59,837 bases of DNA, taken from positions 1 through 59,837 of the forward strand of contig CANQVE010000009.1 in the NCBI GenBank assembly GCA_947627205.1, given 5' to 3'. Under the pieces are notes generated by a model. The model was given only the letters and a program-made list of their open reading frames with translations. It did no database searches and was not told the DNA's origin. Origin of the DNA: an uncultured Clostridia bacterium. Its GTDB lineage: Bacteria; Bacillota; Clostridia; Oscillospirales; Ruminococcaceae. Of the stretch, positions 2,341-19,285 are shown in pieces. Numbering within the stretch: position 1 is the stretch's first letter; each line of letters begins with the position of its first letter. A program made the translations under genes and the position numbers.

Positions 2341-3969
<1,629 letters not shown>

Positions 3970-5549: not shown

Positions 5550-6524
5550 TTAAAATGCTTTTTTCATTGTATCTGTTTTCTCTTCCATGTTTATTATCAG
5601 ATCACTAATCAGCGTTATAAGCCATACACTGTGTATAGCCGGCATTATCATCATATATGCAATAACATACGGGATTTCCGCGATATCATTATCACTAAGC
5701 ATAATCAGTATAAGTATAAATAAAATAGTGGACGCATACGGAGAATACTTGAACAATACGGCTTCTATCAGATCTATGACAGCTATTGATGCATGGTATG
5801 CAACTCCATGTATAATTATATAGCGAAGACAACTGCTGTTTTTATTGAATCTCAATGTTTGGGCAAACCCCTTTGCCCACCTTATACGCTGTTTGATTAG
5901 AGCTGCCATATTGACAGATGGCTTTTCACTTCCCAGAACGGATTTTGTACGCTTAACCGTCATATTGTTCTCTTTGGCACATATACCGATTGTAAGATCA
6001 TCAAACAGCGTATCATACTTCTGTAGAACATTATTAAAGCTATTGCGTTTCATTATGAATACTTGTCCGGGAATGCTTATCCCAATATTCATGTTCCATA
6101 GTGCCGGACGAATTATATTATGCGAGAGAATTTTGTCTATCTTTATAAGATGTTCAGTAAATGTGTCCGTACTGCTGACCATGATTTTTCCAAAAAACAG
6201 ATCTGCATCTTCGGGACACTGAGCAATAGCTCTCTTTAGGTTTTCATATTCAATTTTTATATCATTGTCAATAAAGAGAATCCTGTCATATCTGCATGAA
6301 ACTATGGAATCCTTTATACGCATATATTTTGTCGTTGAATTACAAATAACTTCTCTTATATTCTCATCTGTTAATTCATTTTTCTTCAGCACCTTTTTAT
6401 CTGAATAAATTATAAGCTCACAATTGTCAAGGTATTTTGAAATATACTTGTAAAAACCTATAATATTATGGTTCAGCTTTTCAGTGCCGCTAATGAATGT
6501 AACGATACTGATGTATTTTATCAT
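5550..6524 (-). CDS. Membrane-anchored family-2-type glycosyltransferase
   Basis: 324 residues. The N-terminal GT-A domain contains a DxD-type motif (FIDNDIKIE, about residue 88) and, near residue 213, QRIRWAKG, matching the Q-x-x-RW motif of processive GT2 enzymes. Two or three hydrophobic segments follow at about 240-310, so the enzyme is probably bound at the inner face of the membrane. The ATG at 6524 has AAGGAG upstream. It lies inside the 3' end of the preceding gene (35-bp overlap) and is the last gene of the nine-gene leftward block. The sugar donor and acceptor are unknown. It is shorter than hyaluronan or cellulose synthases and lacks their C-terminal pore helices. Confidence 0.75.
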   Translation of the reverse strand: MIKYISIVTFISGTEKLNHNIIGFYKYISKYLDNCELIIYSDKKVLKKNELTDENIREVICNSTTKYMRIKDSIVSCRYDRILFIDNDIKIEYENLKRAIAQCPEDADLFFGKIMVSSTDTFTEHLIKIDKILSHNIIRPALWNMNIGISIPGQVFIMKRNSFNNVLQKYDTLFDDLTIGICAKENNMTVKRTKSVLGSEKPSVNMAALIKQRIRWAKGFAQTLRFNKNSSCLRYIIIHGVAYHASIAVIDLIEAVLFKYSPYASTILFILILIMLSDNDIAEIPYVIAYMMIMPAIHSVWLITLISDLIINMEEKTDTMKKAF

Positions 6525-7071
6525 CGCTGTACTCCTTTCCGCTGAATAGAGCAGCGAGACTGCTTTGAATTTTCGACTCGCTCAAGCAATGATCGCTTTC
6601 AAGCAATATCAGTCTCTTGTTCTGGGCTGAAGTCTGCTCAAGCAGTTCTATGCCGTGGTGTATCCCGATTTTTTCATCTCTAAGAGAAAGCACAATGCTG
6701 AGTTTTTCAACAACAATTTGCTTGTTTATGAGTTCAATTTCCCACTGAGTTCCCATCGGGAACCCTTTCTCGTGCGAAAGCTGAGAACGTGAGATAAATG
6801 GATTAATAAGCACCATCTCTCTTGGACAAATTGATGCATCTACCGAAACCATAGCATACATCATTGATGCGCCCAAACTAATTCCGCACCAAATATCATA
6901 TTGATTATGTTTGAGCCATTTGTTCCACTCGGAACCGGAAAAGAGCATGGATTCACCGATGTCATACTCAAACGGAAAAAAATTTATACTATATGTGTCA
7001 CTCATTCCTGATAGGAATACTTCCAACACATTGTGATTTCCTCTTCCATTCCAGAATAAAAGCCTTTTCAT
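6490..7071 (-). CDS. Small alpha/beta-hydrolase-like protein
   Basis: 193 residues. The nucleophile elbow is visible as WCGISLGASMMYA (Ser in G-x-S-x-G form, about residue 66), followed by a strand ending in LINPF. A late acidic and His pair (SLRDEKIG near 130, SDHCLSES near 159) is compatible with a Ser-Asp-His triad. The start MKRLLFWNGRG resembles compact thioesterase/esterase folds with a minimal lid. The ATG at 7071 follows GAGGG and overlaps the upstream radical-SAM stop by four bases. The substrate is unknown. Placement between a radical-SAM enzyme and a glycosyltransferase suggests a biosynthetic or tailoring role, which is inference. Confidence 0.65.
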   Translation of the reverse strand: MKRLLFWNGRGNHNVLEVFLSGMSDTYSINFFPFEYDIGESMLFSGSEWNKWLKHNQYDIWCGISLGASMMYAMVSVDASICPREMVLINPFISRSQLSHEKGFPMGTQWEIELINKQIVVEKLSIVLSLRDEKIGIHHGIELLEQTSAQNKRLILLESDHCLSESKIQSSLAALFSGKEYSDDKIHQYRYIH

Positions 7072-8237
7072 ATAAGTCCCTCATAAAATTCGTTTGCAAG
7101 GCTGTTTCTAAGAACAGAGGCGTCAAAAAACGGTTTATAGCCGAATTTGTGATACAGCTCTGCTGCAAATGAATATAGTCGCCTGATATAATCCGTGTCA
7201 ATAGCACCAAGACTGTTTCCAATTATAGAGCTTACTTCAGCATGATAGATATTAGCACCCGGAATTATGCCGTTTTCTGCCATAAATCGGAAACCATCAA
7301 TCATGTCTTCAAGAGGGACCAATCCTGCTACAAAATTGGACCAGACCTTGCCCGGACCGTAAAACTCTACAAGTTTTTTCAGCGATTCGATAATATGTTC
7401 AAAGCCGACATACATCTCCTTGCCGGGGCAGAAATAACTAAATGCCGAATGAGGCCATACCTCTATATTGAAGCTGGGATTATCAACGCCGTTATCATAC
7501 AGTTCTTTCAGCCGCACTGTATTTTTTGGCGGCATCATGGATACATTGCCTTTTATTCTGCCGTTCCACGGAAGATACTCTCTGATAGCTTTTATTGTCC
7601 TGATATGCATATCAAATTCATGGTCACTGTTTATGTATGATCCGCCGGTAATTATTATATAATTTAATATATCATTTGCAGAAGCCATCTGACATATTTC
7701 CGCCAGCTTTTCCGGAGCTTTCTTCACCTGAATAGGGTTATCTTTATCAACTGTTGCTTTAACCGAACAGAACCTACATCCCTTACCTGAATTCTGAAAT
7801 TCACAGCCCGAATACAGATTGAAATTAAGACAATTCAACCCATACATTTGCGCGAAACGTTTAGGATCATCGCCATCTTTCATTTTCATTTTCCAGAAAT
7901 TCGGGCGCGGCAGAAATCTGAATTCTGATAATTCCTCATGTCCTTTGCATATCAACAATATCCCATTGCTTTCTACGAGTTTCAACGGAGAATCCGGTCT
8001 TATATGAAGTTTTGATACTATACCGCCTGGAAGCAGTATTTCAGTAGGTGTAAGGCGCTTTTTATCCACACCCCAGTTACCATTATCAAAGGCATAATGC
8101 TCCTCCTTAAATTCTCCCGCGTATTTTGAGAATAATTCGGGGTTGTCTTCTACTCCATATACAAGAAGCTCAAATTTGGTCTGTGCGCTTCTTTTGCGGC
8201 TACCTTTGTCGTTTATAAAATCATTCTGGTTTTTCAT
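7068..8237 (-). CDS. Radical-SAM enzyme with unusual Cx8Cx2C cluster motif
   Basis: 389 residues. Cysteines 145, 154 and 157 in CEFQNSGKGCRFC give a CX8CX2C spacing instead of the canonical CX3CX2C. IIITGGSYIN is a plausible 'GGE-like' SAM-contact motif, and a TIM-barrel-like stretch continues to about residue 360. An N-terminal domain of about 130 residues precedes the barrel and contains alternating strands (ILLPGGIVSKLHI). Biotin-synthase/HmdB-like radical-SAM families also depart from canonical spacing, so a distant relationship is possible but not shown. It overlaps genes on both sides by four bases, which is strong evidence of co-translation with the kinase-like and hydrolase-like proteins. 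The reaction is unknown. Confidence 0.75.
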   Translation of the reverse strand: MKNQNDFINDKGSRKRSAQTKFELLVYGVEDNPELFSKYAGEFKEEHYAFDNGNWGVDKKRLTPTEILLPGGIVSKLHIRPDSPLKLVESNGILLICKGHEELSEFRFLPRPNFWKMKMKDGDDPKRFAQMYGLNCLNFNLYSGCEFQNSGKGCRFCSVKATVDKDNPIQVKKAPEKLAEICQMASANDILNYIIITGGSYINSDHEFDMHIRTIKAIREYLPWNGRIKGNVSMMPPKNTVRLKELYDNGVDNPSFNIEVWPHSAFSYFCPGKEMYVGFEHIIESLKKLVEFYGPGKVWSNFVAGLVPLEDMIDGFRFMAENGIIPGANIYHAEVSSIIGNSLGAIDTDYIRRLYSFAAELYHKFGYKPFFDASVLRNSLANEFYEGLI

Positions 8238-8797
8238 ATTTCTTCTCCAATGTAATCAAGTATTGTCTTAGCAACAATTTCGGGAGAAATTTCATCAGTA
8301 ACTATTTCCGTAATAATACCTGTTCTTTCTTTCAAACAGTCAAGGAAAAAAGAATACTGCCGATTGCGTTCAGCTGTGATATCATCAGCTTCATCAGCAA
8401 AAGCACGTTTTTCTATTCGGTTAATTCGTGTGTCAAACTTACATTTCAGTCTGAAAACAAAATCAGGCCTTACCAATGTATCAAATAGTTTATCTGCCAT
8501 TTCAAGTGCTTGTTCAATTTCAAACAAATTGTCGGCATAAGCAGCAGAGACAGTGCTTATCCAATACCTTGCCAGCAGCGCTTTATTGTATTTTTCAGTC
8601 TGTTCACCGCAAATTCGGTTATATTCAAGAAAAGCCTTAAAGCGTGAAAGACTTCCAATATCAAAACGCTTAGACTGTTCCTCAAGTGTTAATATTTCTT
8701 TATGCTCAGTTATAAATTCAAAACCGTATCTTTCACTGAGAATATGTGATACTGTTGTTTTCCCTGTACCATTATCTCCTTCAATAACAATAAACAT
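8234..8797 (-). CDS. Thymidylate-kinase-like P-loop protein
   Basis: 187 residues with an N-terminal Walker A, IEGDNGTGKTT (about 4-14), and the general layout of dTMP kinase-type NMP kinases. ALLARYWISTVSAAYA occupies the place of the dTMP kinase DRY-x-x-S motif, with Ala replacing Asp. A LID-like basic and acidic segment (EKRAFADEADD) follows. It is shorter than housekeeping Tmk. It is therefore probably a specialised nucleotide or nucleoside kinase rather than the essential enzyme. The ATG at 8797 follows GAGG. A 111-bp gap separates it from the activase gene upstream, the only sizeable gap in the nine-gene block. Confidence 0.75.
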   Translation of the reverse strand: MFIVIEGDNGTGKTTVSHILSERYGFEFITEHKEILTLEEQSKRFDIGSLSRFKAFLEYNRICGEQTEKYNKALLARYWISTVSAAYADNLFEIEQALEMADKLFDTLVRPDFVFRLKCKFDTRINRIEKRAFADEADDITAERNRQYSFFLDCLKERTGIITEIVTDEISPEIVAKTILDYIGEEI

Positions 8798-8908: not shown

Positions 8909-9475
8909 CTAAAAAGGCCAACCATTCATTTGTATTGTTTTATCGGATATGTTTATCTCCATTGAATGAGAGCGATTTTCAAATTCTATGCCCGGCTGAT
9001 AAAAATCCGATAAGAAATACACCTTTTGATTAGTTGAACCTATCCAATCGCGTTCAGTGTCATATAATTCTTCTATAAACGGTCCGTCTACAAGAATATC
9101 TGTATATTGAAGAAGTTTCTGTACGAAAGGATTGTTCATTTCCAATAGTTCCTGATACAAATATCCTGTAAAGACAATAACAGAAAGGTTTTGTTTATGG
9201 CACCATTCAGCCAGATATGCGAGTCCTTCAGCCTGAAGCATAGGTTCCCCGCCTAACATGGTAATTCCTTCAATTTGATATGTATCTACTGCATTTGAAA
9301 TAACTGAAACAAAATCCGCAGTATCGACAATTCTGTTTCTACGAAATTCCTGCATATCAAGATTGCAGCATCCCGGACAATTTCGTTTACAGCCTTGAAC
9401 CCAGACAGCAATTCTTTTGCCGGGACCTTCTGATTCTGTGCACAGCCTTATAGCAGCAAGATTTAAAAACGGCAT
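8909..9475 (-). CDS. NrdG/PflA-like radical-SAM activating protein
   Basis: 188 residues with the canonical CX3CX2C motif (Cys29, Cys33, Cys36 in GCKRNCPGCC) and the TMLGGEPMLQ SAM-binding motif. This is the compact architecture of anaerobic ribonucleotide reductase activase and related 4Fe-4S single-cluster proteins, which abstract hydrogen to create a glycyl radical on a partner enzyme. The C-terminal ISDKTIQMNGWPF resembles the end of many NrdG-like proteins. No glycyl-radical enzyme is encoded anywhere in the window. Instead the gene sits six bases after a ClpB-like ATPase, in line with helicase and PIN genes. Its target may be a component of this block or may lie elsewhere. Confidence 0.85.
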   Translation of the reverse strand: MPFLNLAAIRLCTESEGPGKRIAVWVQGCKRNCPGCCNLDMQEFRRNRIVDTADFVSVISNAVDTYQIEGITMLGGEPMLQAEGLAYLAEWCHKQNLSVIVFTGYLYQELLEMNNPFVQKLLQYTDILVDGPFIEELYDTERDWIGSTNQKVYFLSDFYQPGIEFENRSHSMEINISDKTIQMNGWPF

Positions 9476-9481
9476 ATTATA

Positions 9482-11323
9482 CTACTCCAAATCGAAGTCA
9501 AATAATGCTGCTTTTTCACTCATCTGAGAAATCAGAATACGACGATTGTACAGCATTTCAGATTTCTTAAATATAAACTCAGAAAGAGGATTGATTATGA
9601 CACTTTCCATCACGTTCAGCAAACCTCGTCCTCCATTTGCTATACCTGCTTTTTCTGCTATGGCATTAAAAGCATGTTCCTCGTTCTCAAACACGAGATC
9701 CGCATGATAACGCTCTTTTACGAAATCACTGATTGTCTTAAATTTAAGGCGAGCAATCTGTGTTAATACAGCAGTATCTTTGATAAAGTTAAATGCAACA
9801 ATATTATCGCCTATACGATTTAATAATTCAGGTCTTCCGAGCGTTTTGATGAAATGCTCCTTAACTTTTTCAATAAATTGTTTTGAGATCTCTTTACGAT
9901 CCTGCCCCGGTTGAACTGAAGATGCACCTATATTAGAGGTAAAGATAATGATTGTTTCAGAGAAATAGACAGTTTCACCTTTTCCGTCAGTCAAACGACC
10001 ATCCTCAAGAATTTGAAGAAACTTATCCAGAATTTTTCCATGAGCTTTCTCAATCTCATCAAAAAGTAAAACGCAAAACGGTTTCTCTTTAACAGCATTT
10101 GTAAGCTGACCGCCTGCTTCATAACCGACATAACCGGGAGGCGCACCTACAAGCCTTTGATCGCTGTGTTCATGATTATATTCAGACATATCAAATCTTA
10201 TACATGCATTTTCGTCACCAAATATGTATTCCGCAAGCGACTTTGCCAATTCGGTTTTGCCGACACCGGTCGGGCCTACAAAGAACAATGTTCCTTTGGG
10301 CTTTTTTTGTTTTGCCGAATGCTGTAAGCCGGAGAACCCTGTGTATGCACGAATAACTACATCCTTGACTTTTGATATTGCGCCATCTTGCCCCTTTACA
10401 CGTTCTTTTAATCTTTCTTCAATGTGTTCGAGCTTGTCTTTTGAAAGTTCTTCCCAAGGGCTGACTTTTTCCCCGTATTTATACAGATTTATTAGTTTTT
10501 CGCATGACATTCTTTCTCCCTCATCCTGACGTGACAAAATCATCAGCTGGAAGATTTCACGCAATGTAAAACCATCAAGAGCATCGACAAAATCATCGAT
10601 GCGTGATTTATCACAACTGATATCCGGATTAACACGCAATGATGAAAGATTTGTGGTTACAAATTGTTCTCTTTCATTGCGGCCGGGCAACGGAACATTA
10701 ATCAAACTTACCATTGGGTTATTAAGATAAAAAGCAGGCGGGATAGTGGCACTGTTTTGCGTGATAAGTATAACTATGTTCGACTTGTTTGAAGTATCCA
10801 AAAAGTCATATGGACGGCTCTTTTCTAATACTTTTCCGAGCGTTGCCAAATACTCACGTTCTTTTTCGCTTAATGAGTTGGCACTGCCAAAAAGATAATC
10901 CGAATAGTCAAGTATATAGGCTCGGCCTTTTATATCGTCTTCGCCTCTGTTTTGTTGAATTTGTTGAAGCATATACGGAAAGAATTCTTCCGGTGCCTTG
11001 TAATTTGGAGTTTCTAAGTTTGCAAAATCATCTGTGTCTATTCCCATATCGTAGGTGGACTCGCTTTGCAAATTTTGAATGTTGCTTTCTTTGATTGGAT
11101 TAGAAAGTTTATTATCTATACCATCCACACGGTCCCATTTAGTGACATTATATTTTTGGGCTTGCAAACAACTAACGACAGTGTCTATAACAGGCATATA
11201 CAACCCATTATTAAATGTGTTCATCATAATGTCGCTTGTATTTCCAAATAGAATTATGGCAGATTTTATGCCGCACTCTCGCTTAAATCTTTCAATCCAT
11301 AAATCGTATTCTTTTTTGGCCAT
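9482..11323 (-). CDS. ClpA/ClpB-like AAA+ ATPase with a degenerate first AAA domain
   Basis: 613 residues. The C-terminal half (about 300-613) is a ClpA/B D2-type AAA+ module: Walker A GPTGVGKTEL (350-359), the pore-loop region containing GAPPGYVGY, Walker B LLFDEIEKAH, sensor FTSNIG, and an arginine-finger region GRPELLNRI, followed by the ClpB D2-small domain. The N-terminal half looks AAA-like (AYILDYSDYLF in the Walker B position, VILITQN in the sensor position), but I find no Walker A there. The Clp N-domain and the ClpB middle coiled coil are missing. The pore-loop aromatic predicts substrate threading or unfolding. Its ATG overlaps the coiled-coil gene stop by one base, with AAGGAG upstream. 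Confidence 0.85.
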   Translation of the reverse strand: MAKKEYDLWIERFKRECGIKSAIILFGNTSDIMMNTFNNGLYMPVIDTVVSCLQAQKYNVTKWDRVDGIDNKLSNPIKESNIQNLQSESTYDMGIDTDDFANLETPNYKAPEEFFPYMLQQIQQNRGEDDIKGRAYILDYSDYLFGSANSLSEKEREYLATLGKVLEKSRPYDFLDTSNKSNIVILITQNSATIPPAFYLNNPMVSLINVPLPGRNEREQFVTTNLSSLRVNPDISCDKSRIDDFVDALDGFTLREIFQLMILSRQDEGERMSCEKLINLYKYGEKVSPWEELSKDKLEHIEERLKERVKGQDGAISKVKDVVIRAYTGFSGLQHSAKQKKPKGTLFFVGPTGVGKTELAKSLAEYIFGDENACIRFDMSEYNHEHSDQRLVGAPPGYVGYEAGGQLTNAVKEKPFCVLLFDEIEKAHGKILDKFLQILEDGRLTDGKGETVYFSETIIIFTSNIGASSVQPGQDRKEISKQFIEKVKEHFIKTLGRPELLNRIGDNIVAFNFIKDTAVLTQIARLKFKTISDFVKERYHADLVFENEEHAFNAIAEKAGIANGGRGLLNVMESVIINPLSEFIFKKSEMLYNRRILISQMSEKAALFDFDLE

Positions 11324-12525
11324 TATTGATTTCTCCTTTTCGGGTTAGTTGTTGAATTCGAATCTTTTGACAACCTATCGGGGTTTTCCCAGATTATACG
11401 TTCATCTGAAAGGCTGATTGAGTACACCTGTTCAAGTTCAACATTAAACTGTTCGATATCTTTGAGGCATGTCATTCCCTCATATTCATCAAATTTATAA
11501 ACAAGTTTTCCGTGTAAATCCAGTCTACACTGAACCCGCTTTCCGGATGGCTTCTGAGCTACAATCCTGACATAATTATAATTCTGATCCTGTACTAATT
11601 GGGGAGGTTTGACCTGAAATCCTTGTTTTTTAAGCGAAAGGAATACTGATTTAACTGCTTCGCGGCGAACATCTTCACTAATAAGTGTATCATCCATATC
11701 AGATTCTATTTTTGCAAGTTCTTGTTCTAATTCCGGCTGCGACTTACTATCCGATGAGATTTGTTCCTGAATAGAAGCAATCTGTTTCATCAACATCTGA
11801 GCCTTTTCCTGATCTTCAACTTTTTTCTGTGTCAACTGTTCCTGCATCATTTGGAGGCGTTCCGTAAAGACTTGCTGATTTTCCTTTTTCTCGGATTGAT
11901 TTTCCCATTCAGAAGCTCTAGCATGAGCTTGTGCAATGATCTGTTCGGCATGCTTGCGTAAATCGGAAGCACTCATTGAATTCACGCTGTCCAATGCTTT
12001 GTTACGCAGTTCCGATAATTCCTTTGCAGCAAAATTTATAACCGCCTGATCTTGAATACCGGAAATCAAATCATAATAAGTATCATTAATTTCACCTTGT
12101 TTGCGAATACGTTCTGCTCGCTCTGCTTCTTGACGCTGCCGCTCTGCTTCTATTTCTCTTCTTCGATATTCCCTTTCAGCTGCATGCCCTTCTCTATACA
12201 TCGAATGGATATATTCTCCGATACGAAAACTTACATCTCTCGCAGCACCGGGATCAGAATACAACTGTGAACGAATTTGACTTAAGTCAGAACTAAGCCG
12301 TTCCATCTCATCCGGGATATAGGTTTCAAACCCCTGCGAACGCATATCTTCATATTGCTGAAGATATCGCTGATAAAACTGCTCTGTGTTATTGCGAATT
12401 CTAGCCTCATTAGCCCGTCTGCGCGCTTCATACGCCGCCTGCAGTCTTGCTTGCCGAATTTGTCTTTCTATTTCTCGTGCCCGTTTCTGTGCAAGAGAAT
12501 AATCATATTCTGCCGATCTGCTCAT
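11323..12525 (-). CDS. Coiled-coil protein partnered with the ClpB-like ATPase
   Basis: 400 residues. I recognise no enzymatic domain. The first 160 residues are extremely rich in Arg, Glu, Gln and Ala with heptad-like spacing (for example YRRREIEAERQRQEAERAER), predicting long coiled coils. A second coiled segment lies at about 220-290 (MQEQLTQKKVEDQEKAQ). A more globular C-terminal domain (about 300-385) has alternating strands (YNYVRIVAQKPSGKRVQCRL). It may be an adaptor or scaffold for the adjacent AAA+ protein, since both are in one operon with overlapping stop and start. The ATG at 12525 follows AGGAGG. Confidence 0.7.
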   Translation of the reverse strand: MSRSAEYDYSLAQKRAREIERQIRQARLQAAYEARRRANEARIRNNTEQFYQRYLQQYEDMRSQGFETYIPDEMERLSSDLSQIRSQLYSDPGAARDVSFRIGEYIHSMYREGHAAEREYRRREIEAERQRQEAERAERIRKQGEINDTYYDLISGIQDQAVINFAAKELSELRNKALDSVNSMSASDLRKHAEQIIAQAHARASEWENQSEKKENQQVFTERLQMMQEQLTQKKVEDQEKAQMLMKQIASIQEQISSDSKSQPELEQELAKIESDMDDTLISEDVRREAVKSVFLSLKKQGFQVKPPQLVQDQNYNYVRIVAQKPSGKRVQCRLDLHGKLVYKFDEYEGMTCLKDIEQFNVELEQVYSISLSDERIIWENPDRLSKDSNSTTNPKRRNQ

Positions 12526-12540
12526 TCTAACCTCCTGTTA

Positions 12541-15003
12541 TTAACGCTTCTTTTTCTTCTTGTTATTTTTGCCATTATTCTTTTCTTGCTTGTGTTCCCG
12601 TTCAGCTTGCTGAATGTTAGCTAAAAATCCGTCCGTTGTCATAGTAGTGATTCCCTGTGATTTAGCAAGATTTCTCATATTCGTATCATCTGTAATTAAA
12701 ATCGGCTTATGAATAAAATATTTCAGTGCAACGGATATAATGCGGCAATCAGGATTGTCAGAATCTAAATCACTTGAAAGCAAATCTATGTTACTTGCCT
12801 CTTTAAGATTTATCCAATCAAAAGTACTGTAATTATCAATTACTCGTATTGCCTCGCGAGCTTGAAAAGCAATTTTCTCATCTTCATCCTTTTTTAACCC
12901 GTCTAACTCTGATAGCATCATTTGCGGCACAATTACCATAGTTTCTTTCCCATCAAGCAGTTCAAATAAATTCGGTAAATGCATCAATGAATTGGTATCC
13001 AATATGCAAATTTTGCTATAACGCAGCGTTTTATCACAACAAAACATACTTAGCACAGATGATAGTTTTTGAAAATTCTTATCAGCCGAGATCAAAGCAT
13101 GACTTGCAGTTGACATATCCGAGAAATCTCCAAATCTAGAATCGAACTGTTCTAAGTTGCTTCTCCAAAGTTCCAAAAAATCTGTAATCTTTTCAAGGTC
13201 TGAGCGATGATATAAAACTGCCTCGGTCAAGTGCTTTTCACTTGTTTCATCCATAAGAGATATTTCAAGTAATTCTTGCGTTCTGTCAACAACACTTCTC
13301 ATATCTCGTAAAACGGATTCGTACTGAGTAAACTCTTCAAGGGTGTAAAAGTCATCATCTGCAAACTTCGATAGCATTTCTCTTAGAACTTCATCACTAT
13401 ACAAAGTTTGGCATAGGTTTTCCTGTTTAATAAACTTTATGTACTGTTTTCCGAGACTTTGAATATATGACAGCATCTCAACAACTTCAAACAAACTCTG
13501 AGACATCCTAATGCCATTTAAAACAATACGCAATAGTGCTTCTATTGTACTTGGACGTTTTTTTACAACATCAACCGAAGTATAGTTTCTCAAAACCTGT
13601 AAAGCACTCGAAACATTAGTTATCTGTAATTGAATATCATCTTTATCCAAAATCAATTCGTTAATTATTTCATCGCTTACGGTTTTACTCTTATATAAAG
13701 TTAGTGAGTCATCATTCAGTTGTGTAAGGAAACGTATTTTATCTTCTATTGACTTCAAATTACGGCAATAATCCTCAATTAACTGCATTTCCACAGACTG
13801 CATACCTAATGCTCGATAAATATGCAAAAAGCTCGGATTTGCCATATATTTTTTCTCAATATAACCAAGTATTATTGTCTTAATGTCAACACTTGGTTTT
13901 TTCGGGATATAGGCAAGTTCTACAATTCTCGTTGTAGAACCGGCAGTTAAAGAAAATAAGCCGCGTCCGACAGCCTGATTTCTATCCAAGTATACCAGGC
14001 CCTTTGGCAGAAGATTTTCGGATAGATAAACAGTAATCGAACCTCGTTCTATTTTCAGTTTTGTATCCTCAGCATTACAGAAGAAACTAAGTTTAACGTT
14101 CCCTTTTTCACTCGAAAAAGAACGAATTTCCTCAAAATGATAATTTGAATCAACAATAAGCATATCACTGATTTTATCAATTTTATCAATCAATGATTGA
14201 AGCTGATTTGACGGGGCAATTGCTTTCAGCTCATTATCAGGATCTCTCACCTGAATGAGCGGAAGATCATTAGAAGTTAAACCTAAATCTAATCCGGATA
14301 ATGCAGCTGAATCAATAGCAGGATTATCATTGCTTTCAACGCTGCAAATTAACCCGCTGCGAATAACAAGCGATTTGATAACATTTTTCCAAACCAATTC
14401 TGATTTAACAGGTATTATTCGTTGAATACTTGTTTCTTTCTCTAACCAAGAAGGCCGTTCTGTCTGCTGTTTAAGAGCTTCTAATGTCTGTCTGACTAAC
14501 GGTTCCGGAAAAACTAATTCATCTGCTGATTCAATTTCGCGAACAATTATTCCGTTAGGTTTATCATGATAAGTTGTTGTCTTAAAATCTCTTCTAAGCT
14601 GATTTGCTAAAACATGATAGAAAAATCCAATTCTATCAGTAGATGCAGCACTTGGCAGTTTGCCATCTTTTTGCATAGCAGCGCCAACATCTGTCAATCG
14701 CAGCTGCCCCATTGTTGTTTTACTCATATCTGTCTGATCATAGACCAAGTTTAACTGCAAAGCACCGATATCCCTTAAGTTCAATAAGCAAGGCCTAATC
14801 ATTTGATTGGTGTCAGTAATACCAAATATCTTAGAGAAAAATTCCTCTATCGTTGCTCCTGAATATTGAGGTATTTGCTGTACTCGCTGTACAGCCTCTA
14901 AAATCAACCATTCTATTGCAGTAGAACGTCTAGCAGTAAAATGCGTAACCTCAACACTATATTGAATAAACGGATAAGATAAAGTAACATCAGTCAGCTT
15001 CAT
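12541..15003 (-). CDS. Large protein with C-terminal PIN nuclease domain
   Basis: 820 residues. The last ~165 form a PIN-like domain: CILDTNSLMHLP (first acidic residue), LSELDGLKKD (second), DSDNPDCRII (third and fourth) and PILITDDTNMRNLA (last). These are all the acidic residues expected for metal-dependent RNA/DNA cleavage, and the arrangement resembles the PIN found in PhoH2/YlaK-type proteins. A very basic Lys-rich tail follows. The first ~640 residues match nothing I recognise; they seem largely alpha-helical from about 400 to 640. It overlaps the helicase stop by four bases (ATGA), so helicase and nuclease are probably made together. A nuclease effector is the simplest role. Confidence 0.8.
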   Translation of the reverse strand: MKLTDVTLSYPFIQYSVEVTHFTARRSTAIEWLILEAVQRVQQIPQYSGATIEEFFSKIFGITDTNQMIRPCLLNLRDIGALQLNLVYDQTDMSKTTMGQLRLTDVGAAMQKDGKLPSAASTDRIGFFYHVLANQLRRDFKTTTYHDKPNGIIVREIESADELVFPEPLVRQTLEALKQQTERPSWLEKETSIQRIIPVKSELVWKNVIKSLVIRSGLICSVESNDNPAIDSAALSGLDLGLTSNDLPLIQVRDPDNELKAIAPSNQLQSLIDKIDKISDMLIVDSNYHFEEIRSFSSEKGNVKLSFFCNAEDTKLKIERGSITVYLSENLLPKGLVYLDRNQAVGRGLFSLTAGSTTRIVELAYIPKKPSVDIKTIILGYIEKKYMANPSFLHIYRALGMQSVEMQLIEDYCRNLKSIEDKIRFLTQLNDDSLTLYKSKTVSDEIINELILDKDDIQLQITNVSSALQVLRNYTSVDVVKKRPSTIEALLRIVLNGIRMSQSLFEVVEMLSYIQSLGKQYIKFIKQENLCQTLYSDEVLREMLSKFADDDFYTLEEFTQYESVLRDMRSVVDRTQELLEISLMDETSEKHLTEAVLYHRSDLEKITDFLELWRSNLEQFDSRFGDFSDMSTASHALISADKNFQKLSSVLSMFCCDKTLRYSKICILDTNSLMHLPNLFELLDGKETMVIVPQMMLSELDGLKKDEDEKIAFQAREAIRVIDNYSTFDWINLKEASNIDLLSSDLDSDNPDCRIISVALKYFIHKPILITDDTNMRNLAKSQGITTMTTDGFLANIQQAEREHKQEKNNGKNNKKKKKR

Positions 15004-18000
15004 TCGTTGTCACCGCCTTGATATTCTTTCAAGATTCTTGCTTCTACATCCGGAGTTATTAGTTTTTCGCTGCCTTTGAAACACCCTTTTCTATTCATAT
15101 CTTCCATGATATTTTGATATACAGGAACAGTACTTGTCCCGGAATCATCCATATTAGGAAGTTTAATTTTGAGCTTTCCATAGGTATGCTTAGCTCCTAC
15201 GATAACTAACAGTTGCTGTGCTCGGGAAAAAGCAACATTAATTCGCTCAAATGTAATTACATGTTTACTTGCCCGTCCCTCGGGTGAATTGGTTACAAGA
15301 CTTGTAATAATAACATGTTTCTCCTTACCCTGGAAACGATCTACAGTATTAATGTCGACATCAAGCGGCGAAAAATCAAATCCGCTCCGCTTGGTTTCTC
15401 TGAATAGTTCACGTATTCTATTGACCTGAGCTTGATAGAAGCTAATTATGCCTACTTCTTTTTTCTTTCCATTATTTTGGAATTGCTCACGCCACCCATC
15501 TGCCATTTTCTTTAAAAGTTCAATGATCATGTACTGCTCTAATGTGTTATAAACAGAAGTTCCGCTTTCTTCTCTGGTTCGTGGGTTAGATTTAGAATCA
15601 TAGATAGGTGTCCCTTTGGGCAGCTGTGAAGAATCCACCCAATAAGCATGCTTTGAGGGGACAATAAACTCACTGCCATCGGCTCCCCTTATTGTCAATC
15701 CATGCGCTTTTATTTTTGCTTCTTGAGTATCCGACCATCCATTTTTAAGCCGATTTTCATAAAAGCGATTGATGACAGACATGATATGCGAATGCATTCT
15801 ATACTGTACTAAAAGCGAATGGCGAATACTGTCATCAGCTTTCTCAAAATACTCCTTAAATAAAGAAGAAGTAATCATATCTCTAAATCTTCGGAAATTA
15901 TCAACTGTCATTAAATCACGTAATTCTACCGGAATAGAATCGGAGTCAGCGATAAGGTCCTTGTATGAACTCTCATGTTCCTTAAACATCGGTGGCAGCT
16001 GCCGATGGTCGCCTACTAATATTGCTTTTCTTGCTTTCATTAAGGGAATCAGCAATTCCGGCGGAGTAGCCTTACTAACCTCATCTATTATGACTACATC
16101 AAAATCTTCGTAACCATTGTCAGTTAAAGCTCGCATATTATCAGTACAAGAAATTCCGACCACATTGCAAGAATTGACATAAATAGGCTGATAATACTTC
16201 TGATCGTAACTAAACATTTTATCGTCAGTTAAACGATCATTAAAATGTTTCATAATATCTTCCCACTGTCTGCGAATTATTTCAGAGTCAGCAAGCATTT
16301 TCTCAACGCTTTGAAGAGTTTGAGATAGAGCCGACATGATCGTAAAAGAATCATTAGTAGAAGTTTGATATTTGGCAGAAAGCGTTTGCAATAATGATTG
16401 CTTCCGTTCTAATGATAATTTTGTATCTTGTATTCTGTCATTAATTGCTTTCAATTGACTATCATTAAGTCTAATTTGCTCCAAAACACCGGATGTATCT
16501 TCATGAGGCAGGTTATCTGTATATTCGATAACCTGTGAGCATGCCAATTTCAAAGCATCATTTGCCTTTGATAAAATGCTTTCAACCTTTTCTTTAATTA
16601 CAGATATATCTCCGGTATTTATTTGTGCAGTTAAAGAAGCACTAAACACTTGCTTCTCTGTATAATTGAGAGAAATACTGGAGTTGTTTCCATTTGCCGC
16701 GTCGATCTGATCTTTAACTTCATTTAATTCTTTTTTGAGCTTAGCCAGCAATTCATTATCATCTGCTTCTGCGGCATCCGCCATTTTGTTCTTAATCTCA
16801 ATTCGCCGGTTTTCAAGTATCTCAAGTCCGCTGGCATTTTGAACTGATTGACGTCCGCATTCTTGAATTTTTGTACTAATGCTTTCGAGAACAGGAAGTC
16901 TTGAAAGCAATATGCGCAGCATCTCACAGCAGTTTTCAGTTCCCTGTGTTTGAGTATTCAGTTCGTGTATTGTTAACTGAATTCCTTCATCAAGAGCATT
17001 TTTGATTATGGGATTGATAATCTTACCTACAATATCAAGCTGGCTATCGGAAAGGAACAATTTTGATTCAGTCACACCATTCAGGATATTCTTAAATGAT
17101 TGTGCTTTCTGTTTAGCGTCCAGAACCGCTGCATTTTGACTATTCAACCGGTCAAGCTGTTCACGCAGTTCATCATATCTTTGCTGTAGATTTTGATGTT
17201 CCTGATACAATTGACTAAGATTATGTTGATATTCAGCAATATCCTGCTGGTAGTTTTGCAGATCTTTTATGTCTCGACGGCACTCAATACGCTGTCTCTC
17301 AAGTGTATCCCACTTATCGAGCCATTTTTTTCTGATTGAAAGCGAAAGCGCCTGATAGTAGTACTTCAACGCTTCATCTTCCGAATATTTTCGCTTATTC
17401 AAATCGACATTACGTTTTTTTCTGCTCCTTTGTCCAAGTCGAATAGCCCTGATTTCAGGTCTGTCCGCAAGACGTTCCAATGCATTATCAACTGCATCAT
17501 TAGATTGTGAAGCAATGAGAACACGGTTTCCTTGTACCACAAGTTGAAAGATTGCTTCGGCAATTACAGTTGTTTTTCCTGTACCGGGAGGCCCTTGTAT
17601 CAAACAAATGTCCGGAGCTGCTATCATTTTTCTGACAGCTTCTTTTTGATTTTCATTTTCCGCGATGTTGGGATTAAGCCAATGTTCTATTTCTACAGAT
17701 TCGTTTGCCATCGGAAGTCGAGCTTGATTAATGTTAAACAACCATGCCGCCAAATTTGGAGAATAGCATTCGTCTCTTTCCAAGCTATTGATAGCCCAAT
17801 TAAATCGCCTAATAAGAACTAAGTCGCCGACTGCCGAAAGCGCAAGAAAACCGTTAGGCCTTATATCAGCAAGGTAGTTTTCATCAATGAAGTATCGTTC
17901 CTCATCTTCAGTAAGAAAATTCTGATCCTGCATTCTATCTTTAATGTCTCGCGGGAGATCATAAGCAACTTTAGCAATGTAAGGAGTGTCGAATGCTTTA

Positions 18001-19127
18001 ACGACATCTTCATCAGACAAAAGTGTGATTGAACTCTGTTTAGCAGATTCTGAAAAATCGTCATCTTCTTCAGAAGCATAGGAAATCCCGTGAGATTTCG
18101 GAAATTCAGTAGCACTATCATTATTGACTGTCAAGTAATAGCTTTCTTTAACCTCTCTAAATCGTCCCAATTCAATACTGCGTGCAAATTTTCGCTTTCC
18201 ATCATCTACAACTGCTAATTCAAATTCCCATTCATTTTTAGAATAATCATTGTCAAATATTTGAATATCTCTGTTAAGATAGCATCGATTAGCTTTAAAA
18301 TATTCTTCGTCTTTGCACACTAGCCAAAAGATAACCTGCTTCTTTTCAAAATCATACTGAAAACGATAGTATTTTATTCCATATACTTGACGAATGCAGA
18401 TTTCTCTATGCCAAACCAGATACTCTTTCCATCCTTTAAGTCTTTCTGAAGTATATTTAGCAAGAGATTCTGCATTATTCAGTATTTCATAAAGAAAATT
18501 ATACTTAACCTCAGTCGGATTATTTTTAGGTACAACAGTAGCTGCCACTTCAAAATCAAGTTGTTCTGTATCTGCGGCATCATAAATGTCATCTACTACA
18601 AATTCGTGCCCTTTTACATGCCCCCTAAACATGAGAGTAATCCCTTTCGGAAGCAATTCCAGCAAATAATCACCCGGAGCAAGTTTGGGCCGAATTGCTA
18701 AAACTTGAACACCATTACCGTTCTTGTTTTGAAAAGATAAATTGCGAATAAAAACACTTTTCTGAAATCCGTCATAGAACTCGTTATCCAGTATAGTTTG
18801 CAATTTGTTATCAGACTGCATTTCCCGAATAAGGTGATATTTCTTGCAGAGCTTTTCAATACTTGTTTTGAGGCGATTTCTTTTCTCATTTTCATTGTTA
18901 AGTCGGATGAAAACAAAACGATTTGAATAGGACAAATCTGTATTATTAATTTCTGTTTCATCTTCTGCGCTGACATCATCTATACTGTCATCAATAAAAT
19001 CGTTGCCATCACTAACGGAATCAGTCACATCATTATAAAATGTACCGCCAACAATATCTTCAAGCCCTGCATAAACTTTATTAGAATTATATACGTCATC
19101 CTGCGAATTCCAATGTTCATCTCTCAT
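15000..19127 (-). CDS. UPF1/DNA2-like superfamily-1 helicase with long coiled-coil insertion
   Basis: About 1375 residues. SF1B helicase motifs of the AAA_11/AAA_12 (UPF1, DNA2, SMUBP2) class are clear: Q-like/motif I QGPPGTGKTTV (about 511), Ia ASQSNDAVDNALERL, motif II VVIIDEVSKATPPEL, III VGDHRQLPP, IV region LVQYRMHSHIM, V VDRFQGKEKHVII, VI NVAFSRAQQLLVIVG. About 450 residues of mostly coiled-coil sequence are inserted between motifs Ia and II. The N-terminal ~490 residues match no domain I know. I moved the start to the ATG at 19127, nine bases after GAGG. The upstream in-frame TTG at 19136 abuts that site. First gene of the block, behind a perfect promoter. 5'-3' translocation on RNA or DNA is expected from the family. 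Confidence 0.9.
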   Translation of the reverse strand: MRDEHWNSQDDVYNSNKVYAGLEDIVGGTFYNDVTDSVSDGNDFIDDSIDDVSAEDETEINNTDLSYSNRFVFIRLNNENEKRNRLKTSIEKLCKKYHLIREMQSDNKLQTILDNEFYDGFQKSVFIRNLSFQNKNGNGVQVLAIRPKLAPGDYLLELLPKGITLMFRGHVKGHEFVVDDIYDAADTEQLDFEVAATVVPKNNPTEVKYNFLYEILNNAESLAKYTSERLKGWKEYLVWHREICIRQVYGIKYYRFQYDFEKKQVIFWLVCKDEEYFKANRCYLNRDIQIFDNDYSKNEWEFELAVVDDGKRKFARSIELGRFREVKESYYLTVNNDSATEFPKSHGISYASEEDDDFSESAKQSSITLLSDEDVVKAFDTPYIAKVAYDLPRDIKDRMQDQNFLTEDEERYFIDENYLADIRPNGFLALSAVGDLVLIRRFNWAINSLERDECYSPNLAAWLFNINQARLPMANESVEIEHWLNPNIAENENQKEAVRKMIAAPDICLIQGPPGTGKTTVIAEAIFQLVVQGNRVLIASQSNDAVDNALERLADRPEIRAIRLGQRSRKKRNVDLNKRKYSEDEALKYYYQALSLSIRKKWLDKWDTLERQRIECRRDIKDLQNYQQDIAEYQHNLSQLYQEHQNLQQRYDELREQLDRLNSQNAAVLDAKQKAQSFKNILNGVTESKLFLSDSQLDIVGKIINPIIKNALDEGIQLTIHELNTQTQGTENCCEMLRILLSRLPVLESISTKIQECGRQSVQNASGLEILENRRIEIKNKMADAAEADDNELLAKLKKELNEVKDQIDAANGNNSSISLNYTEKQVFSASLTAQINTGDISVIKEKVESILSKANDALKLACSQVIEYTDNLPHEDTSGVLEQIRLNDSQLKAINDRIQDTKLSLERKQSLLQTLSAKYQTSTNDSFTIMSALSQTLQSVEKMLADSEIIRRQWEDIMKHFNDRLTDDKMFSYDQKYYQPIYVNSCNVVGISCTDNMRALTDNGYEDFDVVIIDEVSKATPPELLIPLMKARKAILVGDHRQLPPMFKEHESSYKDLIADSDSIPVELRDLMTVDNFRRFRDMITSSLFKEYFEKADDSIRHSLLVQYRMHSHIMSVINRFYENRLKNGWSDTQEAKIKAHGLTIRGADGSEFIVPSKHAYWVDSSQLPKGTPIYDSKSNPRTREESGTSVYNTLEQYMIIELLKKMADGWREQFQNNGKKKEVGIISFYQAQVNRIRELFRETKRSGFDFSPLDVDINTVDRFQGKEKHVIITSLVTNSPEGRASKHVITFERINVAFSRAQQLLVIVGAKHTYGKLKIKLPNMDDSGTSTVPVYQNIMEDMNRKGCFKGSEKLITPDVEARILKEYQGGDNE

Positions 19128-19256
19128 TGTTTTCAACCTCTTCTGTAGAGTCTTTTAACATTTTTCTTTAATCAAAGCATGCTGTACTTCATCAGCAATT
19201 TGAGAAAATATGATGCGCAGAATAGACAGTAAGCACCACTCACCATATCTTACACA

Positions 19257-19285
19257 ATTATATCACATTTTTTACATAATGTCAA
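19257..19285 (-). promoter_or_regulatory. Consensus sigma-A promoter of the helicase-to-glycosyltransferase block
   Basis: Minus-strand TTGACA (19285-19280), a 17-bp spacer and TATAAT (19262-19257). The leader to the ATG at 19127 is about 120 nt. No other comparably good promoter was seen upstream of the genes down to 5550, so one transcript may cover all nine. Confidence 0.8.

Follow-up and report, generated by a model that had tools for sequence, protein, structure and literature searches.

Mokosh is the nearest named relative of the locus reported here, a defence system that a passage of PMC11291487 describes as degrading viral transcripts and for which a table of PMC10952713 lists a PLD-like domain. 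Its type I form consists of two genes, a UPF1-like helicase with a Ser/Thr kinase (MkoA) and a protein ending in a PLD domain (MkoB). For vWA-type conflict systems, passages of PMC7159879 state that superfamily 1 (SF1) helicases typically accompany PIN domains as effectors, with a radical S-adenosylmethionine (radical-SAM) domain elsewhere; these architectures differ from the one described below, yet they give a precedent for combining a helicase with a PIN domain. We analysed a stretch of 59,837 nucleotides (the window; contig CANQVE010000009.1 of an uncultured Clostridia bacterium, Ruminococcaceae), in which five genes encode a UPF1-like helicase (P1), a PIN nuclease protein (P2), a coiled-coil-like protein (P3), a two-domain AAA+ protein (P4) and an NrdG-like radical-SAM enzyme (P5). 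Together they probably form an undescribed RNA-targeting anti-virus system. Judged by sequence comparison, P1 and P2 are Mokosh-related, and the set appears to be a new variant related to Mokosh, joined to a module for which we found no description. In the literature searched (titles, abstract beginnings and passages, mostly without subscription papers), neither the five-gene set nor the P3-P5 module was found described, and the passages of PMC10853773 and PMC12926258 describe nothing resembling the set.

The five leftward open reading frames form one tight operon (window positions 8909-19136, minus strand), with junctions of -4, +15, -1 and +6 bases between successive genes from P1 to P5. The promoter and the genes are as follows.

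19257..19285, minus strand: perfect sigma-70-type promoter (TTGACA, 17-base spacer, TATAAT)
15000..19136, minus strand: P1, UPF1/IGHMBP2-like SF1 helicase of 1378 amino acids (Pfam AAA_11/AAA_12; MkoA-like without the kinase)
12541..15003, minus strand: P2, PIN nuclease protein of 820 amino acids (MkoB-like N-terminal domain, PIN_4, Lys-rich tail)
11323..12525, minus strand: P3, coiled-coil-like protein of 400 amino acids (conserved C-terminal domain at about residues 275-385)
9482..11323, minus strand: P4, two-domain AAA+ protein of 613 amino acids (AAA_2, structure model, motifs)
8909..9475, minus strand: P5, NrdG-like minimal radical-SAM enzyme of 188 amino acids (CX3CX2C at residues 29-36)

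The open reading frames, junctions and promoter coordinates bear out the initial annotation, which had read five near-contiguous leftward genes behind a perfect promoter from the letters alone. Its domain calls (UPF1-type helicase, PIN, ClpB-D2-like AAA+, minimal radical-SAM) were recovered with Pfam and NCBIfam; the coiled coil of P3 had been read from composition and not computed, and all Pfam matches of P3 were below threshold. Its interpretation is supported, the defence role being a predicted one. Perfect TTGACA/TATAAT sites with a spacer of 16-18 bases numbered seven in the window, compared with 0.03 expected in shuffles; strong matches of this kind are thus frequent here, and that of the operon is not unusual for the genome.

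Nine distinct systems, spread over Bacillota, Actinomycetota and Pseudomonadota (alpha, beta and gamma), carry the complete P1-P5 set in identical order: the window, Schwartzia succinivorans, Slackia equolifaciens, genome G752, Photobacterium toruni, Polaromonas naphthalenivorans, Acinetobacter sp., Moellerella wisconsensis and Leisingera thetidis, the last five on plasmids. G752, like the window, was assigned to its phylum through kinship with Schwartzia. The same five genes thus stand together, on chromosomes as well as plasmids, in unrelated genomes of three phyla, as the initial annotation had proposed to ask. Slackia was found by a genome-contig scan with two patterns only, which is not a census. 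The plasmid search with P1 gave 298 matching records, and nine loci or slightly more were examined, counting the Leisingera and Rhizobium loci found with P4; the Leisingera locus was reached through a P4 match (21 plasmid records), not through P1. Six Moellerella records were 99.9-100% identical in P2, and one was examined and counted as one system. The loci of G374, G814, G775, G903 and G950 were left out, as were plasmid records of Caballeronia, five Rhizobium and Mesomycoplasma.

The set was rare, occurring in 2 of 398 genomes of the phylum. Full-length P2 was present only in its own genome among 197 genomes of the order (any P2 match: 3/197), in two of the 398 phylum genomes (its own and that of S. 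succinivorans, G511; any match: 34/398, almost all covering the PIN part only) and in Slackia alone among 149 genomes of its class (any match: 63/149). The N-terminal region of P1 was found in 2 of the 398 phylum genomes, the same two as full-length P2. Homologues of these two parts were therefore not scattered singly in the phylum sample; they were confined to the two genomes with the whole operon. Additionally, no named system in padloc or NCBIfam matched the five-gene set as a whole. The earlier statement that the combination could not be named thus holds for the whole set, but P1 and P2 are recognisably Mokosh-related, and P3-P5 form a separable, wider-spread module.

Identity to the window proteins was 25-45% for P1, 18-28% for P2, 22-45% for P3, 41-67% for P4 and 40-62% for P5, and pairwise distances correlated among the five proteins (r 0.74-0.98 over the nine systems, uncorrected for shared ancestry). 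Window P4 was 66% identical to that of Slackia, which belongs to another phylum, 67% to that of G752 and 56% to that of Schwartzia. Being as close to the Slackia protein as to the G752 protein, and closer to it than to the Schwartzia protein, window P4 points to horizontal movement of the unit. The neighbourhoods included BREX-1 genes and a DarT-like gene in Acinetobacter; a gene with an HsdR N-terminal domain, an IS3 transposase and an integrase in Photobacterium; HsdS, ArdA and an integrase in Moellerella; transposases in Polaromonas; plasmid replication genes in Leisingera; and an adjoining phage-type integrase in G752. The suggested proximity to known defence genes was found at the Acinetobacter, Photobacterium and Moellerella loci, a count made without an enrichment control, and not at the other six. 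No relatives were detected in 50,697 phage records or in viral contigs. No place covering 80% of P4 was found in 5,426 E. coli genomes, and the best 20 of 1,479 E. coli records matching P4 were partial ClpB or Clp-subunit matches. A comparison of empty sites with relatives of the family gave differently arranged neighbourhoods and no clean junction.

The open reading frame listed for P1 starts with TTG at 19136, but translation may plausibly begin at the in-frame ATG at 19127. The motifs GPPGTGKT, DEVS, GD(H/P)xQLPP and QGKE were present in P1 of all nine systems, the last of them escaping a strict pattern in Acinetobacter and Photobacterium. The front motifs of the helicase are set apart from the rear ones by a long insertion. 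The nearest solved structures were SMUBP-2 (107 bits), DNA2 (97 bits) and UPF1. Two S1 RNA-binding domains were detected by Pfam in Slackia P1. The padloc MkoA profile PDLC03920 scored 337, 346, 363 and 367 bits on the four P1 proteins scanned, compared with 719 for a plasmid MkoA. No Pkinase match was obtained in eight of eight P1 proteins scanned with Pfam, and the ninth, from Schwartzia, gave no match to padloc kinase families.

Two domains were delimited in P2.

14584..14988, minus strand: P2 residues 6-140, winged-helix-like domain shared with MkoB (padloc, hhalign, structure model)
12637..13005, minus strand: P2 residues 667-789, PIN domain (Pfam) with acidic residues D669, E699, D752 and D773

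PIN_4 matched the C-terminus of window P2 at 2.9e-20, and the four acidic residues were kept in P2 of eight of the nine systems, the ninth (G752) having no PIN domain. No PLD domain was found in the five P2 proteins scanned with Pfam, which show PIN_4. At the N-terminus, padloc MkoB profiles matched three of the four P2 proteins scanned, weakly (E 8e-4 to 6.5e-3) and in the same register. The N-terminal domain aligned with that of four verified plasmid MkoB proteins (hhalign P 3.9e-4, probability 36%) with a score of 41.9; the highest control scores were 21.2 in 100 column shuffles and 20.9 against eight other families. The structure model of P2 was poor (mean predicted local distance difference test, pLDDT, 41), with residues 28-114 moderately confident. 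In G752 (L098:3657-5069 and 2567-3715), where P2 has no PIN domain, P3 starts with a basic stretch resembling the end of a P2 protein, as if an internal stretch had been lost. The window PIN domain also matched NCBIfam PhoH2, at 18.5 bits and far under the cut-off of 680; an assignment of P2 to PhoH2/YlaK was rejected, as nearly all P2 matches elsewhere span the PIN part alone.

The locus resembles Mokosh type I in placing a UPF1-like helicase beside a protein with an MkoB-type N-terminal domain and a C-terminal nuclease, and Mokosh type I occurs on plasmids too (MkoA and MkoB loci L135-L138). It differs in that the kinase of MkoA is missing from P1, the helicase of P1 carries the long insertion, P2 ends in PIN where MkoB ends in PLD (PLDc_2 was detected in one, from Pseudanabaena, of two MkoB proteins scanned with Pfam), and three further genes, P3-P5, are present in all nine systems. 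Because the kinase, the PLD domain and the two-gene organisation are lacking, the locus is not Mokosh type I. In Agrobacterium, a PP2C gene follows the Mokosh type I pair (L136:6956-9203), which suggests phosphatase control of the MkoA kinase.

The structural matches of P1 bear on whether the target would be RNA or DNA. P1 could instead be a DNA2/SMUBP-2-like translocase that senses replication intermediates or transferred DNA, with the PIN domain cutting flaps or single strands, and the unit would then be a DNA-directed defence. In favour of this, DNA2 ranks high among the solved matches to P1, cleavage of DNA flaps is known for some PIN nucleases, and a giant helicase beside P4 and P5 in a Rhizobium plasmid locus (L134) has an REase domain. 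The S1 domains of one P1 speak against such a target, as do the match of the PIN domain to PhoH2, by its NCBIfam name an RNA helicase, and the description of Mokosh in the passage of PMC11291487 as acting on viral transcripts, and we regard a DNA-directed role as quite improbable.

P4 and P5 were assigned by family matches, motifs and a structure model, with the following domains in P4.

10454..11323, minus strand: P4 residues 1-290, degenerate AAA-like first domain (structure model; no Walker A)
9812..10303, minus strand: P4 residues 341-504, intact ClpB-D2-like ATPase (GPTGVGKT, LLFDEI, GYVG pore loop)

Window P4 matched AAA_2 at 4.5e-52 (Pfam). Walker A, Walker B and GYVG were all present in the second domain, and no Walker A was found in the first domain (residues 1-290) of any of the nine five-gene P4 proteins. 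The P4 model (mean pLDDT 73) matched ClpC/ClpB over both rings (best E 2.4e-26) with a template modelling score of about 0.45 and a root-mean-square deviation >10, meaning that the domains match but their relative placement does not. P4 thus shares with ClpB/ClpC the two-ring architecture, the D2 Walker motifs and the pore loop, whereas its first AAA domain has no Walker A and its 613 amino acids leave no room for the N and middle domains of ClpB; it scored 286 bits against the ClpB equivalog of NCBIfam, compared with 1232, and does not have two active domains. P5 matched Fer4_12 and Radical_SAM (Pfam) and carries CX3CX2C in all nine systems, as do 19 other P5 proteins tested. It resembles NrdG and other glycyl-radical activases in its minimal radical-SAM family and its CX3CX2C and GGEP motifs, but it scored 103 bits against NrdG (NCBIfam), below the cut-off of 126, and no plausible glycyl-radical substrate was seen in the operon. 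None of the five core proteins of the window matched NrdD or a glycyl-radical family (Pfam, NCBIfam). P5 as the activator of a glycyl-radical enzyme of the operon was rejected, since a search for R[VTCI]xG[YF] in P1-P4 of the nine systems gave two isolated hits, in Leisingera P2 and Polaromonas P1, neither shared nor C-terminal. P5 is not a viperin (pVip 20.8 bits; NF038283 17.1 bits, cut-off 180). P5 adjoined P4 in 29 of the 30 P4 loci examined, the search having been made for P4 and not for P5 on its own.

These activities would also suit a stress or RNA-quality-control module, in which P1 and P2 degrade stalled or damaged transcripts (perhaps on ribosomes), P4 extracts or unfolds trapped proteins and P5 is an anaerobic or redox-linked regulator, the unit spreading horizontally because it is conditionally useful and not as phage defence. 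The pairing of a UPF1-like helicase with PIN is reminiscent of eukaryotic RNA decay, the S1 domains of Slackia P1 and the threading ATPase P4 fit such a role, and so do Slackia and Schwartzia, which are gut or rumen anaerobes. Acinetobacter, Photobacterium and Moellerella are presumably not strict anaerobes, which counts against it; moreover, the set is very rare and plasmid-borne, with one locus beside BREX-1 and several beside integrases or transposases, and the nearest named relative of P1 and P2 is a defence system. We consider a stress module rather unlikely.

P4 and P5 were also found in the absence of P1 and P2. The P4-N profile detected 13 of the 398 phylum genomes, namely the two five-gene genomes and 11 others (10 of which were examined), and 6 of 198 genomes of Actinomycetota; a deeper P4-N profile detected 13 of 196 genomes of the window's own class, one being G752 with its five-gene set (L098). 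The weak P4-N loci L101-L105, with a housekeeping-like context, and L110 (G1093) had been dropped beforehand. Of 21 loci without P1/P2 (L098 being set apart as a five-gene locus), 20 have P5, 16 a P3-like coiled-coil protein, 15 a kinase, 14 FHA and 12 PP2C. Partial contigs are included in these counts, and the profiles for kinase, PP2C and FHA were derived in part from the loci that they were used to score. Those three profiles had no match at E 1e-3 in the stretches examined of the nine five-gene loci. In turn, P2 had no match in the 21 other loci, and P1 matched only weakly, at 22-23 bits, in two Rhizobium loci (L131/L134). The kinase-type loci (L061, L063-L065, L099, L100, L107, L132) share with the operon clustered homologues of P4 and P5 and a coiled-coil protein that is probably homologous too, and differ from it by phospho-signalling genes in place of P1/P2. 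The Slackia genome has both a five-gene locus (L041) and a kinase-type locus (L107). By sequence, P3-P5 is a separable module, spread more widely than the five-gene set.

A recurrent cluster (L061, L063-L065, L099, L100, L106-L108, L132) comprises coiled-coil, FHA/zinc-ribbon, NrdG-like radical-SAM, two-domain AAA+, PP2C and Ser/Thr kinase genes, some of them undetected at some loci, and no published name for it was found in the literature searched. At L065, which adjoins a type III CRISPR locus, Csm4 and RAMP genes lie just upstream of the cluster (15303-18295). In Aristaeella the cluster lies on a plasmid behind two genes, one with a DUF4011 domain and one for a Ser/Thr kinase (L132:1-6003). 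On a Rhizobium plasmid, the gene directly after P4 and P5 encodes a protein of 2086 amino acids that combines kinase, DUF4011, UPF1-like helicase and REase_MTES_1575 domains (L134:11470-17730). Hhe/DUF4011 systems thus resemble the five-gene set in having large UPF1-like helicases, in some P4/P5 loci (L132, L134), but these helicases belong to another family (P1 profile 22-23 bits on L131/L134) and no PIN partner was seen.

The module bears directly on whether the locus might simply be a subtype of Mokosh type I in which P3-P5 are carried along as passengers. The relationships of P1 to MkoA and of P2 to MkoB favour this, against which stand the missing kinase and PLD domains and the presence of the five genes together, with correlated divergence, in all nine systems. 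Since P3-P5-like sets recur without P1/P2, P3-P5 are unlikely to be passengers, and we judge such a subtype very unlikely.

The link between P3 and the kinase-type coiled-coil proteins centres on a conserved C-terminal cysteine.

11467..11469, minus strand: codon of P3 Cys353 (alignment of P3 and kinase-type relatives)

When the nine P3 sequences were compared with 14 kinase-type relatives, profile against profile, the C-terminal domains aligned (P 9.7e-5, probability 58%) with a score of 35.2, compared with at most 19.9 in 199 shuffles (0/199 reached it) and at most 21.0 against eight other families. The kinase-type coiled-coil protein is thus probably homologous to P3. Cys353 was invariant in all nine P3 proteins and aligned with a cysteine invariant in 14 of 14 relatives, whose aligned C-termini had only three invariant columns (Gly, Tyr and Cys); Acinetobacter and Moellerella P3 have no other cysteine than its equivalent. 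The Gly-Tyr pair of all 14 kinase-type proteins was rejected as a glycyl-radical site, since P3 does not keep it: some P3 proteins have Asp or Glu at the glycine, and Phe is found for Tyr. Given this conservation and the presence of P5 in the same operon or cluster, Cys353 is the leading candidate site of modification by P5; a role in structure or metal binding would be just as likely.

Taken together, we favour, with slightly better than even confidence, a mobile RNA-targeting defence in which P1 and P2 would be sensor and cutter and P3-P5 a control module. P1 and P2, with its MkoB-like winged helix and PIN nuclease, would form the sensing and cutting pair: P1 would load on foreign or aberrant RNA and pass it to the PIN active site of P2, a handover akin to the working proposed for Mokosh with its PLD nuclease. 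P3, P4 and P5 would gate this pair. P4 may act as an AAA+ machine whose first ring is structural and whose second ring uses ATP for threading; the adaptor P3 would recruit it, and it would remodel the helicase-nuclease complex. P5 would modify a partner by radical chemistry, most plausibly at the C-terminal cysteine of P3. In the related loci without P1/P2, Ser/Thr kinase, PP2C and FHA proteins may feed the same P3-like/P4/P5 module. A bolder proposal, which we hold to be rather improbable, is that P3-P5 constitute an undescribed protein-modification switch shared by several immune systems, in which P5 modifies the adaptor cysteine and thereby licenses P4, one of whose two rings is dead, to switch on interchangeable effectors. 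The Mokosh-like helicase, with PIN replacing PLD, would be the effector in one form, and a kinase/phosphatase/FHA circuit would provide the input in the other.

What carries the RNA-targeting defence is the gene set, its constant order, the parallel divergence, the mobility and the intact catalytic motifs; from these we infer the anti-phage activity and the RNA substrate, and several observations weigh against them. Defence-type genes lie beside just three of the nine loci, with no background rate for comparison, and absence from phage and viral records would be expected of a defence system and of other mobile cargo alike. Some UPF1-like helicases act on DNA (DNA2, SMUBP-2), and no S1 domains were found in the seven other P1 proteins scanned with Pfam. 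Slackia P2 gave no MkoB match in padloc, and G752 P2 lacks the PIN domain, with no significant PIN found by tblastn in that locus. Finally, single-profile searches found no link between P3 and the kinase-type coiled-coil proteins, which only profile-profile comparison connects, at P 0.024 with fewer sequences.

The leftward run resumes 111 bases past P5 with a nucleotide-kinase-like gene, a radical-SAM gene and two more, of which the first two are possible accessories.

8234..8797, minus strand: nucleotide/deoxynucleoside-kinase-like protein, possible accessory (similar gene after P5 in the Acinetobacter plasmid)
7068..8237, minus strand: second radical-SAM protein, possible accessory (NF045502; the radical-SAM protein of the Acinetobacter locus is not similar by blastp)

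The Acinetobacter plasmid has a nucleotide-kinase-like, a radical-SAM and a small gene in the same place. The two nucleotide-kinase-like proteins were 31.5% identical over 146 residues (blastp) and the latter two pairs were dissimilar, so the genes at 8234-8797, 7068-8237 and 6490-7071 were rejected as core. The succession of a nucleotide-kinase-like and a radical-SAM gene after P5, in the window and in Acinetobacter (L128:23856-25360), recalls viperin-type nucleotide chemistry. Tandem radical-SAM genes also lie near the operon in Schwartzia (L034:16221-19230) and Photobacterium (L126:10527-12595); one of each was scanned with Pfam, both with SPASM, and matches between the two loci had 23-26% identity.

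The five-gene set carries the helicase principle of Mokosh over to another nuclease, and it suggests that an energy-driven ATPase and a radical enzyme can take the place of the kinase as partners of the Mokosh helicase half. We know of no other radical-SAM protein modification that controls an RNA-targeting immune complex, and the conserved cysteine offers a direct way to test what the radical-SAM enzyme does. The P3-P5 module also occurs with other partners, so that working out its biochemistry once would account for a broader class of mobile operons.

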